64,000 nucleotides of DNA. Origin: Gammaproteobacteria bacterium (GTDB lineage Bacteria; Pseudomonadota; Gammaproteobacteria; AKS1). Below are positions 51,527-59,824 of the stretch, piece by piece (position 1 is the stretch's first letter; each line of letters opens with the position of its first letter). Position numbers and translations under genes: made by a program. The notes under the pieces are model-generated. The model saw nothing but the letters and a program-made list of their open reading frames with translations, searched no databases and was not told where the DNA came from. Location of the stretch: assembly GCA_027006175.1 (NCBI GenBank), contig JALTKS010000079.1, positions 81,515 through 145,514 on the forward strand, read 5' to 3'.

Positions 51527-52255
51527 TTAACTAACGTCGTCTTTTGCCCAAGGTGTCACATGACGTTGTTCACGAGGATTATCAACTTGTGTACGTGTTG
51601 GGCTGAAGAATACACCTGGTGCATGAAGTAGTTTGCTGTATGGGAAAACAATCATCAGCAGACCAACCAGTCCAAGGTGAGTTAACAGAATAGGGTCTTC
51701 TGGCATGGGTTGAATATCAAAATAAATCAAACCAAGCATAAAGTTTTTCACTGCGATGACATCGGTACCAGAAACAAATTTCATTAATAAGCCGGTAGCC
51801 GTAATGCCAACGATCATAGCAAGCATTAAATGATCAGATGGTGCAGATATATAACGAACACGGTCAACGAGGATACGACGCGCCCATAGACCAAGGAGGC
51901 CCAGCAGCATCAAAAACCCAGCGTAGATACCAAAAGGTTGAATCATATTAACCCATGTCCAGGGTGTTTCAATGATGTAACGAAGGTGGCGTAATAACAC
52001 CAACAACATACCGAAATGAAATGCCCAACCGAATACCCAGGTCCATTTAGAAGACCTGAATAAACTTTCAAATAAGACCACTTCTCGCCACATACGGTAA
52101 ACAACACCAGCCTTGGTAGTCGGGGCAGGTGTTACAACAATCTTTAGTGGTGAAGGGGTTTTGGCGTATGTATAAATACGGAATGCCAAGCCTGCAAATA
52201 ATATGAAGGCAGCAAAGTAAAATAATACACTATAACCTAATGTCAGCATCGACAT
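51527..52255 (-). CDS. dsrM: DsrM, NarI-like membrane cytochrome b
   Basis: 242 aa; multi-TM; adjacent to dsrK. Confidence 0.92.
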   Translation of the reverse strand: MSMLTLGYSVLFYFAAFILFAGLAFRIYTYAKTPSPLKIVVTPAPTTKAGVVYRMWREVVLFESLFRSSKWTWVFGWAFHFGMLLVLLRHLRYIIETPWTWVNMIQPFGIYAGFLMLLGLLGLWARRILVDRVRYISAPSDHLMLAMIVGITATGLLMKFVSGTDVIAVKNFMLGLIYFDIQPMPEDPILLTHLGLVGLLMIVFPYSKLLHAPGVFFSPTRTQVDNPREQRHVTPWAKDDVS

Positions 52256-52292
52256 CGATTAAATCCTCATGGTGTAACAAAGTTTAAAGCGA

Positions 52293-52312
52293 GGTCGGGG
52301 CGAACCCCGACC
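52293..52312 (-). other. Strong hairpin between dsrC and dsrM
   Basis: 8-bp perfect stem GGTCGGGG/CCCCGACC with TTCG loop on the minus strand; no immediate T-tract. Confidence 0.8.
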
Positions 52313-52334
52313 CACATAACATGTGCTTTAGAGC

Positions 52335-52670
52335 TTATACACAACCTGTTGGTTTTGGTAAACCAGCATATTTACAAGCTTGCTTGGCAGGACCGTATGG
52401 GAACAATTCGTACAAGTACTTGCTGTTACCTTTGTCTTTACCAAGTTTTTTACCAATTGCTTTAGTCAGTACACGTACTGCTGGTGCAATTTGGTATTCG
52501 TCGTAGTATTCACGTAAGAATTTGATCACTTCCCAGTGACTGTCAGTTAGTTCACAGTCATCGATAGTTGCCATGTGTGAACCAATTTCTTCGTTCCATA
52601 CACTACGGTCAACCAGGTAACCTTCTTCATCAACTTCTACGCTAGTGCCATTTACATCGATATTAGCCAT
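52335..52670 (-). CDS. dsrC: DsrC, sulfur-carrier protein with both C-terminal cysteines
   Basis: 111 aa; C-terminus KQACKYAGLPKPTGCV (Cys-x10-Cys). Confidence 0.97.
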   Translation of the reverse strand: MANIDVNGTSVEVDEEGYLVDRSVWNEEIGSHMATIDDCELTDSHWEVIKFLREYYDEYQIAPAVRVLTKAIGKKLGKDKGNSKYLYELFPYGPAKQACKYAGLPKPTGCV

Positions 52671-52718: not shown

Positions 52719-53024
52719 TTAGAGCCAAGATTGAACTTGACTGTGGTCGGCTGCCAATTTGACAAAGCCGGCATAGTCCACAAGTTCGATTCCGTCCATA
52801 ACACGCTCATTAACACCGCGTGCACTAACGTCTTCACTTAAAGCGTAAACTTTGACAGTTTTCATAGCATCTTCAACCATAGAAGAAGATGACGCGCCTT
52901 TAAGAGCACCGTAAACACCGTCTTCAATTAATAAGACAGCGCTTCCGTCTTTCGCACAACCAATGGCACGCTCAAGAGAATTTTTGTCAAAGGGTGATTT
53001 ATTTACTGTATGTAAAATTGCCAT
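52719..53024 (-). CDS. dsrH: DsrH sulfur relay protein
   Basis: 101 aa; SLERAIGCAKDGSAVLLIEDGVYGAL. Confidence 0.92.
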   Translation of the reverse strand: MAILHTVNKSPFDKNSLERAIGCAKDGSAVLLIEDGVYGALKGASSSSMVEDAMKTVKVYALSEDVSARGVNERVMDGIELVDYAGFVKLAADHSQVQSWL

Positions 53025-53036
53025 AATCAGTATCCC

Positions 53037-53450
53037 TTAGAAGTTAAACATGACGTCTGAACTGTCGATGAGGTCAGCCATTTCAGCACGGCTAACGATT
53101 TTGATTGATGACTTTTCAGCCCAATCATCATCTTCATCTTCATATGTCAGTGGCATCAAGTCGTCTTCAGTCAGACCACGTTCATCGAGAGATTCTTTTT
53201 CAACATAAATCTTGTTGACATCGTAATCGCCCAGTGCTTTATAGGTTGGTGCAAAATTCTTTGTACCAATTCCAGTTGTATCCTGACCCTTCATGAGCTG
53301 GAATACACCATCGTCCAAAAATGCAAGTCTCACGTCTTGTTCAAAGGCAGCGCCGATAAGAACAACCTCCAGTGACTCCAATGCGTAAACAGTACCGTGA
53401 GGTGCTTTTCGGTTTACGTAGAGGAATTGTTTTGTAGTACCTTCACTCAT
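53037..53450 (-). CDS. dsrF: DsrF sulfur relay protein
   Basis: FLYVNRKAPHGTVYALESLEVVLIGAAFEQDVRLAFLDDGVFQLMKGQ; ATG at 53450 preferred. Confidence 0.92.
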   Translation of the reverse strand: MSEGTTKQFLYVNRKAPHGTVYALESLEVVLIGAAFEQDVRLAFLDDGVFQLMKGQDTTGIGTKNFAPTYKALGDYDVNKIYVEKESLDERGLTEDDLMPLTYEDEDDDWAEKSSIKIVSRAEMADLIDSSDVMFNF

Positions 53451-53466
53451 TTCTCGTATTCCTCTA

Positions 53467-53859
53467 TCAATCGCCGAAGACAACCAGGCGATCTGCCTGA
53501 ATGCCGGCTTCGATTAGCTGGCCAAGACCTGAAATGCGAAATCCTTCCTGGATATTGTCGGCATCTTTGCCGTTACGCTTTGACTCATCCGCATCTGCGA
53601 TGCCACGGCGTTGAGCCGCAGCAACACAAAGGACGAGATCAAGATCATTTTCTTTAGCCAGTTCTGCCCAACGGTTAACAACGTGACGGTCATCCTGAGG
53701 AGGCGTCGTCAAACGTGTGCCATTATTAACACCGTCATGGTAGAAGAATACGCGCGTCACTTCATGACCACCTTCAATCACAGCTTTGGTAAACATATAA
53801 GCTGAGTCAGAAGCCTCGTGCGTGTAAGGACCTTCGTTAATTTGAATCGCAAATTTCAT
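53467..53859 (-). CDS. dsrE: DsrE sulfur relay protein
   Basis: 130 aa; MKFAIQINEGPYTHEASDSAYMFTKAVIEGGHEV...DLVLCVAAAQRRGI. Confidence 0.94.
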   Translation of the reverse strand: MKFAIQINEGPYTHEASDSAYMFTKAVIEGGHEVTRVFFYHDGVNNGTRLTTPPQDDRHVVNRWAELAKENDLDLVLCVAAAQRRGIADADESKRNGKDADNIQEGFRISGLGQLIEAGIQADRLVVFGD

Positions 53860-53885: not shown

Positions 53886-54959
53886 TTAGAAACGGATGTG
53901 CGTAGAAGCATTAAGGCTGTTACGCGCACCTTTCCAGTTGTCAATGTGGAACTTGGTGAACGGAAGTTCAGTCAGTTCGAAGAAACGAGGCCAACCGATA
54001 CGTTCAACCCAGTCACCAGTACGTTCCCAATCCAGTGCATCCTTACGGTATGCTTCAAGAATTGTTTTAACGATAGCGGCAGCTTCAGGCCAACGAGGTG
54101 GATTGTTAGGTACGCCAGCAGCAACAAGTTTGTGGAACATAGGCTTGCTACGTGCGTTGGAGTGCTTACCACCAACCCAGATAGCGAGTTTAGAGTATTC
54201 AGCATCGTTAATTTGCATTGGAGGACAAGGAGGGAAACATGCACCACAACAGATACATTTCTTCTCATCAATTTCCAATGATGGTTTGCCATTTACCATC
54301 GCAGGGCGAATCGCCGCTACTGGACAACGTGCAACAACTGAAGGACGTTCACATGCGTTAGCAACCAGGTCATGGTTAATCTTAGGTGGCTTGGTGTGCT
54401 GTACGTTAATCGCGATATCACCTTGACCACCACAGTTGATTTGACAACATGAAGTAGTAATGTGTACGCGGTTAGGCATGTTTTCGTGTGTAAAATCTTC
54501 GTGTAACTCATCCATCAATGCTTTAACAACACCTGATGCGTCAGTACCTGGAATATCACAGTGTAACCAACCTTGAGTGTGAGAAATCATTGTGACCGAG
54601 TTACCTGTGCCACCAATAGGGTAGCCAGCATCTTCAATCGCTTGAATCAGTGGTTCAACTTTTGCTTCGTCAGCAACACAGAATTCCATGTTTGATCGAA
54701 TAGTAAAATGAACGTAACCATCTGCGTATTCATCAGCGATATCGCAAAGAAGATTAATTTCGTATGGTCCAAGCTGACGCTGTGTACCGAAACGCACTGT
54801 CCAAATTTCATCACCGCTTTTCGCTACGTGGCGCAGAACACCTGGACGTGGGCGTTCGTGAAAATCCCAATTACCAAAGTTCTTTTTCATTACTGGGTGT
54901 AAATATTGAAACCCATCCGGACAACCGCTTTCAATTGGATACTGTGGAGTATCAGACAT
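53886..54959 (-). CDS. dsrB: Dissimilatory sulfite reductase beta subunit
   Basis: HYPVMKKNFGNWDFHERPRPGV-type sequence; CCQINCGGQGDIAINVQHTKPP; ferredoxin CICCGACFPPCPPM. Confidence 0.96.
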   Translation of the reverse strand: MSDTPQYPIESGCPDGFQYLHPVMKKNFGNWDFHERPRPGVLRHVAKSGDEIWTVRFGTQRQLGPYEINLLCDIADEYADGYVHFTIRSNMEFCVADEAKVEPLIQAIEDAGYPIGGTGNSVTMISHTQGWLHCDIPGTDASGVVKALMDELHEDFTHENMPNRVHITTSCCQINCGGQGDIAINVQHTKPPKINHDLVANACERPSVVARCPVAAIRPAMVNGKPSLEIDEKKCICCGACFPPCPPMQINDAEYSKLAIWVGGKHSNARSKPMFHKLVAAGVPNNPPRWPEAAAIVKTILEAYRKDALDWERTGDWVERIGWPRFFELTELPFTKFHIDNWKGARNSLNASTHIRF

Positions 54960-55015
54960 ATATGCCTCCAATTCCCTACTTAATTAGTTAAGTATTTCGT
55001 TACTCTCTAATAATG

Positions 55016-55041
55016 CAGCCCGCTTGTTTCCAAACGGGCTG
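55016..55041 (-). other. Hairpin in the dsrA-dsrB intergenic region
   Basis: CAGCCCG...CGGGCTG with inner TTG/CAA pairing; no T-tract. Confidence 0.7.
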
Positions 55042-55058
55042 TAAAATTAATTCAAAAA

Positions 55059-56369
55059 TTAACCGGCTTTACGCTGGTTCCACTTTTCAGCTTCTTCGTC
55101 CCATGTATCCATGCGAACATAAGATGACTGACGAGCAGTGGCGATCATGTTTGGATCAACGTCAACACCGATACCTTCCAGGAAGTTAACGAGGCCGATG
55201 CGATCAATCATTTCACCACAACGTTCATGCTCAAGACCATTTTCAGCCCAGAAGTCGATGATTTCTTCAGCGAGTTCAGTTAGCTTTTCGTAGTCTTCTT
55301 CAGTTTCCAGTTTCATGAATGGAATAAGAATTGTTCCCATCAAGTCACCGATTTTAAGTGTACGTTTACCACCAATAAGAATGGTTACGCCTTTGTCATC
55401 ACCAACAGAAAGTGCTTTGGTCATAACGTTGATGCAATGCATACAACGAACACAGTTACGGTTATCAACAGCAAGTTCGTCATCATCACTCAAAGAAAGT
55501 GCGTTAGTAGGGCAACGTGTTACCACATTGTCGATAACGTATTTACGACCTTTATCAGCGATGAAGTTTTTCACTTCTTCCTGGTTTACTTTCATGTCAT
55601 CACGCCATGTACCGATAACAGCCATGTCTGCGCGTTGAATAGAGTTCATGCAGTCGTTAGGACAACCTGAGACTTTGAACTTGAATTTGTAAGGAAGTGC
55701 AGGGCGATGCATATCATCAATGAAGTTGTTTACGAGTAAACGATGAATCTTCATTTCGTTTGCACAAGATTGCTCACAACGAGCCGCACCGATACAGGAC
55801 ATTGCTGTACGTACACAAGGACCGGCACCACCTAAATCCCACCCATAGGCATTGATGTCGTCAAAGAAATGTTGAACGCGGTCGTTGTCCGTACCGATAA
55901 ACATAATGTTACCCGTTTGACCGTGGAATGCGACAAGACCAGAACCCCATTTGCTCCATGAATCAGACAACCGACGAAGCATGTCTGTAGAGTAGTGGTT
56001 ACCAGCGGGTGGCTGTACACGAATAGTGTGGAATTCTTTACACTCTGGGAACATAGGTTCGCCGTCAGCACCCATTAATTCAGTGAAGCGAGGAATGATA
56101 CCGCCGCCGTAACCGAATACAGAGATAGTACCGCCTTTCCAGTAACCCAGGCGTGTGTTGTAAGAATGTTCTAATTGACCAAGAAGGTCGACCATCATGT
56201 CGCCGAATTCTTCTTGCATAGCGAGTCGTTTAATACCCGTTACGAAACTTGGCCATGGGCCTTTTTCCAGTTCGTCAAGATTAGGTGTGTCGTAGAAAGC
56301 CTTCGTAGATTTTTTCTCTGAAGGCATGAACGTATGATGACGTTCAGGGTTTTTTGGTGTATCAGCCAT
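55059..56369 (-). CDS. dsrA: Dissimilatory sulfite reductase alpha subunit (reverse-type locus)
   Basis: 436 aa; GPCVRTAMSCIGAARCEQSCANE, VSGCPNDCMNSIQRAD; AGGAGG RBS. Confidence 0.97.
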   Translation of the reverse strand: MADTPKNPERHHTFMPSEKKSTKAFYDTPNLDELEKGPWPSFVTGIKRLAMQEEFGDMMVDLLGQLEHSYNTRLGYWKGGTISVFGYGGGIIPRFTELMGADGEPMFPECKEFHTIRVQPPAGNHYSTDMLRRLSDSWSKWGSGLVAFHGQTGNIMFIGTDNDRVQHFFDDINAYGWDLGGAGPCVRTAMSCIGAARCEQSCANEMKIHRLLVNNFIDDMHRPALPYKFKFKVSGCPNDCMNSIQRADMAVIGTWRDDMKVNQEEVKNFIADKGRKYVIDNVVTRCPTNALSLSDDDELAVDNRNCVRCMHCINVMTKALSVGDDKGVTILIGGKRTLKIGDLMGTILIPFMKLETEEDYEKLTELAEEIIDFWAENGLEHERCGEMIDRIGLVNFLEGIGVDVDPNMIATARQSSYVRMDTWDEEAEKWNQRKAG

Positions 56370-56848: not shown

Positions 56849-57742
56849 ATGAGCCAATTCCTTCTCGACAATGAGCAGGCCTATCAAACATGGCGCGCTA
56901 ATAAACTAGGCTCATATCCCCAGTCTGCGAGTGAACTCATTGTTGATATTGCTGACCCAAGAAGTCTAACCACTGCTGAAAAAGATCTAATGTCAGTTCT
57001 ATTTAAGCGCGCTAATATGTTGATATACAATACCAAATTAGGTGAAACTGAGGATAAAGACATTCCTAGAAAGTGTGGTCAACAACTTGGTTTAGCGCAT
57101 CTGGACCCGAATATGCTGGCAGATGACGATGGTATTACCTCGCTCACGGTTGTGCCAGGCAAGCTCAAACGGGGTTATATTCCCTATTCAGATCGGCGTT
57201 TGTTGTGGCATACCGATGGTTATTACAACAAACCAGACCAGCAAATCAGAGCGGTTATCCTTCATTGTGTGCGTCCAGCGGCAGAAGGCGGGGAAAATGG
57301 CCTTGTTGATCCCGAAATGATCTATATTCAGTTGCGCGATGAGAACCCTGAATACATTGAGGCACTCATGCATCCGCAAGCAATGACGATACCAGCCAAT
57401 ACAGAATCAGGTGAAATTACCCGTGAAGCACAGACAGGACCGGTTTTCTCCCTTGATATTGCAACAAACTGCCTCCATATGCGTTATACAGCGCGAACTC
57501 GCAGCATTGAATGGCGAGATGATACCGTAACCCGGCAGGCGGTTGATTACCTTGCCGGCTTATTGAATGATGAAAACCCTTATGTTTTCAATCATATACT
57601 GCAATCAGGTCAAGGGCTGGTTTGCAATAATGTTCTGCACAGCCGAACGGCATTTTCAGATGAGCAGGCTGACGGTGAGGGGCGGTTGTTATACAGAGCC
57701 CGTTATTATGAACGTGTTTCAAGCGATTTAGCGATTATTTAA
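56849..57742 (+). CDS. TauD/CAS-like Fe(II)/2-oxoglutarate dioxygenase
   Basis: 297 aa; LLWHTDGYYN HxD motif and NNVLHSRTAF distal His. Confidence 0.8.
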   Translation: MSQFLLDNEQAYQTWRANKLGSYPQSASELIVDIADPRSLTTAEKDLMSVLFKRANMLIYNTKLGETEDKDIPRKCGQQLGLAHLDPNMLADDDGITSLTVVPGKLKRGYIPYSDRRLLWHTDGYYNKPDQQIRAVILHCVRPAAEGGENGLVDPEMIYIQLRDENPEYIEALMHPQAMTIPANTESGEITREAQTGPVFSLDIATNCLHMRYTARTRSIEWRDDTVTRQAVDYLAGLLNDENPYVFNHILQSGQGLVCNNVLHSRTAFSDEQADGEGRLLYRARYYERVSSDLAII

Positions 57743-57751
57743 GCGATAAAG

Positions 57752-57964
57752 GTGCCGATTATGCTCTATTTGAGTGAAGTATTAATGCAAAATCACGATT
57801 TAAAGACATTTTCTGAGCTCCTGGTCGTGGTTGAAAAAGCAGCACAAACCAGTGGTGAAATTCATTTTAATATGGATGTGAAGCCAAGCTACCCAGACAC
57901 CCCTAACAATTGGGAAGACCGCCTGGAAGGCGCTTTTGCCGGAGTTTATTCGGTAACCATGTAA
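57752..57964 (+). CDS. Small uncharacterised protein
   Basis: 70 aa from GTG (or ATG at 57761); same strand and tightly spaced in cluster. Confidence 0.5.
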   Translation: MPIMLYLSEVLMQNHDLKTFSELLVVVEKAAQTSGEIHFNMDVKPSYPDTPNNWEDRLEGAFAGVYSVTM

Positions 57965-57996: not shown

Positions 57997-58704
57997 ATGA
58001 AATATATAAAGAATGAAGAAGTTAGAGACGCAGACAGTGCTGAAGATGTGCAACAAGCCACCGGCCTGCTCGAAGCGCGTTTACACGAATTAGAACAGGA
58101 AATGACCGAATTACCGGCTGGTTTTGAGCCGAAGCAAAAGGGTGAATTACTGATTCAAACATCGGCCATTCTGGTTGATCTGGAACGCGGCGAAGAAGCC
58201 TTTAACCATGCTCGTGAAGCCTTCGATATTTTTAAAGACATCGAAGACTGGGAAGCATTGGCACAAACCTGTAATAACATGTTTTTAGCGGATCAACCGG
58301 AGTCACTGGCTGCCCTGGGTCAGGGAATTTGGGTCGGCGTTACATTCCCGCAGGTCGATCCTGAGCTAACAGTGGCATTATTACAGCATGTTGTGAATGA
58401 AACACCGCCCGACTCAGATGGCGCAGCATTAGCCGCTGCCGTGGCGCATTATATTGCCGATATTCGTACTGAAGGTAAAAAGCACGAAGATCTGACCTTT
58501 TTCACCAATTCATTGCTGGGAACGGTTGCCAGACGCCATTCAGAGGTTGAATCGCAGGAACAATTTAAAGCCTGGTTCACGCGTATGGAACTGGATGATC
58601 CCGAGAAATTCCTTGTCCGTATGCGTAATGTGATTGATGTACTGGTACAAGAAGACTGGTGGATTGATCGTGATGCTATTTGGGCAACCTTACCGGTTAA
58701 TTAA
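57997..58704 (+). CDS. Uncharacterised, predicted all-helical (TPR-like?) protein
   Basis: 235 aa; stop overlaps the next start (TAATG). Confidence 0.6.
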   Translation: MKYIKNEEVRDADSAEDVQQATGLLEARLHELEQEMTELPAGFEPKQKGELLIQTSAILVDLERGEEAFNHAREAFDIFKDIEDWEALAQTCNNMFLADQPESLAALGQGIWVGVTFPQVDPELTVALLQHVVNETPPDSDGAALAAAVAHYIADIRTEGKKHEDLTFFTNSLLGTVARRHSEVESQEQFKAWFTRMELDDPEKFLVRMRNVIDVLVQEDWWIDRDAIWATLPVN

Positions 58705-59387
58705 TGATGTATTGGCAGGAAGACGAAGAAGAATCCAAACGCGTTTCCGATGCAATTGTTGATGTTGTGTACGGACTGGATTGCCGTAGTTTGCCTGTTG
58801 ATCATGCTTTTGCTTTATCAGAAGCCATCTTGGAACATTTACCCTGGCTTGTTGAAGAACAGGGCGCAGGTGTTCATCCAATCAGCATTCCAGAGGCCGG
58901 TAATGGCTGGTTGCGACCTGAAGGCGAAGATGAGTTATTACACCTATCAAAACGCACCAAGCTAACACTACGAATACCAAGTGAACGCTTTGACGATGCA
59001 GCCGTACTGTGTGGTAAGCAATTATCGGTTGCCGGCAATGAGATGAAAGTATTAAAAATGCGTGAGCGTTTATTGCAGCCGATGGAAACCGTGTTTTCTC
59101 GCTACAATGTTGTTGCAGAAGGCATGGATGAGACGAGTTTTATGCAAGATGTTATGCAAAACCTGCAAGCAATGGGAATAAAACCGCGTAAAATGCTGCC
59201 AGGGCGTGAACACACCATGCGAACAGACGATGGCATGCTTAAAACGATGACATTGATGATTGCGGATCTTTCTCTGGAAGATTCACTAAAAATTCAGCAA
59301 CAGGGAATTGGCCAGCATCAACACATGGGCTGTGGATTATTCATTCCACAAAAAAGTATTACGGAAGTCCATGAAGTACATGAGTGA
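58704..59387 (+). CDS. Cas6/Cmx6-like RAMP-fold protein (orphan)
   Basis: 227 aa; C-terminal QQGIGQHQHMGCGLFIPQKSI matches the Cas6/RAMP G-h-G-x5-G-h-G loop; N-terminal VVYGLDCRSLPVDHAFALSEAILEHLPWLVEEQGAGVHPI resembles the Cmx6 subfamily from memory. Confidence 0.65.
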   Translation: MMYWQEDEEESKRVSDAIVDVVYGLDCRSLPVDHAFALSEAILEHLPWLVEEQGAGVHPISIPEAGNGWLRPEGEDELLHLSKRTKLTLRIPSERFDDAAVLCGKQLSVAGNEMKVLKMRERLLQPMETVFSRYNVVAEGMDETSFMQDVMQNLQAMGIKPRKMLPGREHTMRTDDGMLKTMTLMIADLSLEDSLKIQQQGIGQHQHMGCGLFIPQKSITEVHEVHE

Positions 59388-59485: not shown

Positions 59486-59824
59486 ATGGCTTACGAACTT
59501 AACGGTAAAACAATTGAAGCAACGGAAGAAGGTTACTTACTTGAGATAAACGACTGGTCTGAAGAGCTTGTTCCTGTTATGGCTCAGGCTGATGGTATTG
59601 AATTAACAGATCGTCACATGGATGTTGTGATGTACTTGCGTGATCAACACGTTAACAATGGCGGCAATGAGCCAAATGAACGTACTATCATGAAAGACAT
59701 GGGTAAAAAATGGGGTTCAAAAGTAAGCTCTAAAGATATGTTTATCTTATTCCCTTTTGCACCGTCAAAGCAGGGTCGTAAGTGGGCAGGTCTGCCAAAG
59801 AGTACACGTAAAGGTGGTTACTAA
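59486..59824 (+). CDS. DsrC/TusE-family protein without cysteines (RspA-like)
   Basis: 112 aa; LNGKTIEATEEGYLLEINDWSEELVPVMAQADGIELTDRHMDVVMYLRDQHVN...LFPFAPSKQGRKWAGLPKSTRKGGY; no Cys. Confidence 0.85.
   Translation: MAYELNGKTIEATEEGYLLEINDWSEELVPVMAQADGIELTDRHMDVVMYLRDQHVNNGGNEPNERTIMKDMGKKWGSKVSSKDMFILFPFAPSKQGRKWAGLPKSTRKGGY

Follow-up and report, generated by a model that had tools for sequence, protein, structure and literature searches.

The window, a stretch of 64,000 nucleotides from contig JALTKS010000079.1 of the gammaproteobacterial assembly GCA_027006175.1, contains a dsr operon and, divergent from dsrA, a cluster of co-directional genes that starts with a TauD-like dioxygenase and includes a gene for a Cas6-family protein (Table 1). 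The start codon of the Cas6-like gene and the stop codon of the preceding gene overlap (TAATG). The initial annotation had described this gene as divergent from dsrAB (53886-56369), start-stop coupled to its upstream neighbor and followed by a DsrC-family gene (59486-59824), and it was correct on all of these points.

Table 1. Genes and candidate RNA structures of the dsr locus in the window, and related features in other contigs and genomes.
Feature	Position	Strand	Remarks
dsrM	51527..52255	-	
Hairpin, dsrC-dsrM gap	52292..52313	-	strong, GC-rich; possible RNA target
dsrC	52335..52670	-	both C-terminal Cys present
dsrE, dsrF, dsrH	52719..53859	-	
dsrB	53886..54971	-	
Hairpin, dsrA-dsrB gap	55016..55041	-	strong, GC-rich; possible RNA target
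dsrA	55059..56369	-	
TauD-like dioxygenase	56849..57742	+	TauD/TfdA family; first in cluster, divergent from dsrA
p70	57752..57964	+	conserved 70-aa protein, no assigned family
Helical-repeat protein	57997..58704	+	235 aa, TPR-like by fold; start-stop coupled to the Cas6-like gene
Cas6-family (Cmx6-type) protein	58704..59387	+	227 aa; candidate catalytic His34; glycine-rich loop G201-G211
DsrC paralogue	59486..59824	+	lacks the two C-terminal Cys; ends RKGGY
67-aa protein	L043 10896-11114 and others		downstream of the DsrC paralogue, other genomes
DUF6967 (PF22295)	L111 1339-1563, L112 1481-1696		after p70, rDsr loci without Cas6
II-C CRISPR-Cas locus	L080 2900-7241		cas9-cas1-cas2; other contig of the source genome
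I-F CRISPR-Cas locus	L081 8694-16784		other contig of the source genome

The same layout, in which a dsrAB-EFH-C-M-K-L operon is divergent from co-directional genes for the TauD-like protein, p70, the Cas6-like protein and the DsrC paralogue, was found in 33 of 41 loci. A profile search of 51 loci with a Cas6-like gene placed TauD near 34, p70 near 39, the Cys-less DsrC near 42 and dsrA near 40 of these genes. The helical protein is located near 19 of the 51, and a 67-amino-acid protein follows the DsrC paralogue in 23; the two are nearly mutually exclusive and co-occur in a single locus (p=7e-6). The predicted structure of the helical protein is of high confidence and resembles TPR proteins, with no fold match at E<1e-3. 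Four of 13 members gave a weak match to a Cas11e profile (E about 1e-3), and the identification as Cas11 was rejected, as the fold is instead TPR-like.

The DsrC paralogue belongs to the same family as DsrC (TIGR03342/PF04358), but it ends in RKGGY, whereas DsrC carries two redox cysteines. This C-terminus is strict: in the window and the other loci checked, the redox-type pair of C-terminal cysteines is absent from the paralogue and both cysteines are kept in the dsrC of the operon. We take the Cys-less paralogue to be of the RspA type. In a comparison of distance matrices for co-evolution, the correlation with the Cas6-like protein was highest for TauD (0.75), followed by p70 (0.54) and, weakly, DsrA (0.24); the distances are probably saturated, and these values are not taken as proof.

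Family and structure of the Cas6-like protein

The open reading frame at 58704-59387 encodes a true Cas6-family protein, both by sequence family and by fold. It matches the Pfam family PF09559 (E=2.3e-59, 201 bits; cut-off 26.7), TIGR02807 cas6_cmx6 (E=3.2e-39, 134.9 bits; cut-off 98.85) and the PADLOC Cas6 model (E=2.9e-60), with both bit scores well above the curated cut-offs, while the other Cas6 family in Pfam, PF01881, has no match in the source genome. The only match in a sequence search of PDB was the Cas6 of a type I-B CRISPR-transposon (CAST) system (8fcj, E=6e-13), and a profile search also recovered the type I-B CAST Cas6 (E=1.5e-26). A template-free AlphaFold model (mean pLDDT 90.4, pTM 0.85) has the tandem ferredoxin-like (RAMP) fold, and its 41 matches in PDB at E<=1e-3 are Cas6 or CRISPR RAMP chains. 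The top match is 8fcu (E=3.9e-17, TM 0.75/0.79), followed by Cas6 from Pyrococcus furiosus, solved with and without RNA. The profile matches and the comparison with solved Cas6 structures thus confirm the resemblance to Cmx6-type Cas6 that the initial annotation had proposed.

The closest CRISPR counterparts are the type I-MYXAN Cas6/Cmx6 proteins (TIGR02807, PF09559), for example those of Synechocystis 6714 pSYLB and Nostoc CENA543 (L104 and L105), to which the homology extends over the full length. An hhalign comparison of the Cas6-like profile with the CRISPR-borne cyanobacterial Cmx6 covered 204 columns (probability 99.9, E=4e-31), and the two share the same histidine and the same glycine-rich loop. 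Unlike the type I-MYXAN genes, the Cas6-like gene is located in a dsr neighborhood with no cas3, cmx8, cas7 or cas5 beside it, and the family from the dsr loci has an NGW insertion, R84 and K217 signatures, and a separate side of a 100/99 branch. The type I-B CAST Cas6 (8fcj, 8fcu) is the nearest solved relative by both sequence and fold (TM 0.75-0.79), but it differs in its CRISPR-transposon setting and in having an asparagine at the position of the candidate catalytic histidine. Cas6 and Cas6-related proteins of P. furiosus (3pkm, 3ufc) share the RAMP fold of the model, but belong to a CRISPR setting and had no sequence-level match to the Cas6-like protein in the PDB search.

Conservation was assessed in 57 relatives, nearly all of which come from dsr loci or dsr-bearing genomes, with a mean identity of about 42%. 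The C-terminal Cas6/RAMP glycine-rich loop that had been noted in the window (G201-I-G203...G209-C-G211) is near-invariant across this set. Alignment A1 shows no variation at P47, R84, R90, G201, G209, G211 and K217, and hardly any at G203. The first of the two histidines that had been noted as conserved-looking, His34 in LPVDHAFAL, is kept in 55 of the 57 relatives and is a histidine also in the CRISPR Cmx6 proteins; it adjoins the first helix of the model (residues 35-43), and the Cmx6 histidine is placed at the same site. The second, H58 in GVHPIS, is present in 50 of 57 but replaced by asparagine in both of the CRISPR Cmx6 proteins compared. That His34 is kept in so diverse a set suggests selection on catalysis. 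It is lost in two members, L060 and L103. Within the genus, the gene has a dN of 0.16 and a dS of 1.7, which indicates constraint on the amino-acid sequence. Conservation and dN/dS fit a working protein and are consistent with retained catalysis. Yet catalysis may have been lost, judging from the asparagine at the His34 position in both the CAST Cas6 8fcj and L060.

Relation to CRISPR-Cas systems

The Cas6-like gene in the window is not a CRISPR gene. Its neighbors are genes of the dsr cluster and no cas gene lies beside it, in agreement with its earlier description as an orphan of any cas operon. The initial annotation also saw no CRISPR array in the window. A search for cas genes across the source genome showed that it is not free of CRISPR: two cas1 matches were found on other contigs, one beside cas9 and cas2 and the other in an operon with its own Cas6f, which were assigned from their gene content to types II-C and I-F, respectively. 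To our knowledge, type II-C systems do not normally use Cas6. In a complete genome from the same genus (G001), the Cas6-like gene is present and a cas1 match is absent. More broadly, among 369 gammaproteobacterial genomes, 52 have both the Cas6-like gene and cas1, 66 only the former, 84 only the latter and 167 neither, and there is no association (odds ratio 1.6, p=0.06). Because the protein is present in dsr loci regardless of CRISPR in the genome, it has probably been repurposed for RNA of sulfur metabolism. Carriage by phages was also considered and rejected, as no relative was found on viral contigs in a search that reaches close relatives only.

Co-occurrence with dsrA in Gammaproteobacteria

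The family was identified in 118 of the 369 genomes, nearly always in a single copy, and carriers include genomes as small as 1.0-1.1 Mb. With dsrA called at E<1e-30, 112 genomes contain both genes, six only the Cas6-like gene, eight only dsrA and 243 neither, which corresponds to an odds ratio of 567 (p=2e-76 in a Fisher test, which ignores shared ancestry). The double positives are spread over more than 50 family-level groups, as counted by hand from the tables.

Most of the mismatches are dsr loci broken by contig ends. In six of the eight genomes with only dsrA, the contig breaks off at dsrA or shortly after it, at the expected site of the cluster, and the remaining two are 86% and 88% complete. 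One of the six genomes with only the Cas6-like gene (G319) has the start of dsrA at a contig edge, and several of the others are cut too. Five genomes carry the Cas6-like gene away from dsr, and each of these still has dsrAB at another site. The linkage to dsr is conserved in dozens of families, and the Cas6-like protein is a standard fixture of the gammaproteobacterial dsr locus, an attachment that spans the lineage and not a stray gene.

Hairpins in the dsr operon

Strong hairpins were found in the dsrA-dsrB gap of 19 out of 29 loci and in the dsrC-dsrM gap of 21 out of 25. The corresponding numbers for other gaps of the locus are 0/20, 0/8, 1/21 and 2/25, and 11/65 elsewhere. The sequence of the stems varies from site to site and from genome to genome, and it is their position that is conserved. 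Neither hairpin in the window was called as an intrinsic terminator and both lack a U-tract. A search of positions 44-64 kb of the window against Rfam gave nothing but one sub-threshold match.

Among the five available oxidative rDsr operons from outside the Gammaproteobacteria, which have no Cas6, two contain a similar hairpin at dsrA-dsrB and two at dsrC-dsrM. The hairpins were therefore kept as a lead, as unproven substrates, and control of transcripts by the Cas6-like protein is a tentative reading. They were rejected as substrates specific to Cas6: the signal is position-specific, yet it occurs in operons without Cas6, and the G-U bias between the strands is not significant (25:18 and 22:14). 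In A. vinosum grown on sulfide, transcripts of dsrEFH and dsrC are reported to be higher than those of dsrA (PMC3397948). Dosage is thus indeed uneven along the operon, and cutting at the hairpins would make sense.

Possible functions of the Cas6-like protein

From the computed family and fold, the kept histidine, the RNA-binding loop, the near one-to-one co-occurrence with dsrAB and the gene cluster, we infer a role in RNA handling as the best explanation, with a mechanism and a target that can be put forward only provisionally. We suggest, with a probability of about one half, that this is a non-CRISPR member of the Cas6 family that forms part of the gammaproteobacterial reverse-dsr gene set and handles RNA hairpins for sulfur oxidation. 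The protein would bind a hairpin that occurs in one RNA or in a small number of RNAs. Like Cas6, it would most likely cleave where the stem begins, and in this way adjust how much of each sulfur-oxidation gene product is made. The mRNA of the dsr operon, segments of which are needed in unequal amounts, is the first candidate, and the Cys-less DsrC paralogue may be a sensor of the sulfur state. A more far-reaching version is less probable: a Cas6 ribonuclease with an ancestry in common with CRISPR would be an obligatory post-transcriptional regulator of rDsr throughout the Gammaproteobacteria, with the Cys-less DsrC reading the sulfur state and directing cleavage.

The protein could instead bind structured RNA and leave it uncut; for the sulfur-oxidation genes it would then be a regulator of translation, an antiterminator or an RNA chaperone. 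The near-invariant glycine-rich RNA-binding loop, the match of the fold to a Cas6 solved with RNA (3pkm) and the loss of the histidine in L060 and L103 would all agree with this, but the retention of His34 in nearly all of the diverse members makes it unlikely. We consider it quite unlikely that the target is an RNA other than dsr mRNA, such as a tRNA or a small RNA with a link to sulfur relay. The constant partner of the Cas6-like protein is a TusE/DsrC-family protein, the Cys-less paralogue being related to TusE of the tRNA thiolation pathway, and DsrEFH-DsrC mirror TusBCD-TusE of that pathway (PMC3397948); the strict genomic tie, however, is to dsr. A structural role without RNA, as a scaffold in a regulatory or enzyme complex of Dsr, would suit a protein associated with partners of no assigned function, including the helical-repeat protein, but is very unlikely given that the active-site histidine, R84, R90 and the RNA-binding loop are all conserved. 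That it is an ordinary Cas6 serving CRISPR arrays elsewhere in the genome is extremely improbable: the type I-MYXAN model does match and the genome has CRISPR-Cas loci, but 66 of the 118 carriers, including the complete G001, have no cas1 match, the association with cas1 is negligible beside that with dsrA, the I-F locus has a Cas6f of its own, and type II-C systems do not normally use Cas6.

The observation made in the initial annotation was right, and there is more in its favor than could be known at that time. The Cas6 fold, known from CRISPR, is here associated almost universally with a core energy pathway of sulfur oxidizers, which points to an unrecognized RNA-level layer in sulfur oxidation. 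The label "type I-MYXAN Cas6/Cmx6" given to these genes in databases is probably misleading, judging from the name of the model. No paper that ties Cas6, Cmx6 or MYXAN to dsr was found in a literature search that covered few subscription journals.

Distribution and origin of the gene

Of 399 genomes drawn from across the phylum, only five carry the Cas6-like gene, all from the Gammaproteobacteria sensu lato and all with dsrA. Four of these were new; we judged them to be of betaproteobacterial type, and their Cas6-like genes are all located at dsr loci. The other 48 genomes with dsrA in this draw belong to other classes, and none has a match to PF09559. Of the twenty that were retrieved, five contain dsrEFH and are of the oxidative type. 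TauD and p70 are present without Cas6 in four of these loci, and the fifth, on a short contig, lacks all three.

The TauD-like and p70 genes (56849-57964 in the window; L110-L113) represent an older pair that is divergent from dsrA also where Cas6 is missing, and the Cas6-like gene likely joined it at the base of the Gammaproteobacteria or close to it. In three of the four loci with TauD and p70 only, a small protein is encoded next after p70; in two it was confirmed as DUF6967. At one locus of the betaproteobacterial type (L102 8227-9114), DUF6967 is fused to Cas6.

In an unrooted tree, every copy from a dsr locus was placed on one side of a branch with 100/99 support, and six Cmx6 proteins from plasmids, a small sample of CRISPR sequences, on the other. 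Such a tree agrees with descent from CRISPR as well as with the reverse, which raises the question of which role came first. Five of the six plasmid genes are located beside cas genes. The sixth, on a plasmid of Gloeobacter morelensis (L106 2974-3765), is a Cas6/Cmx6-type gene that has no cas neighbors and lies beside a gene of the PAPS-reductase family, and it may be another non-CRISPR Cas6.
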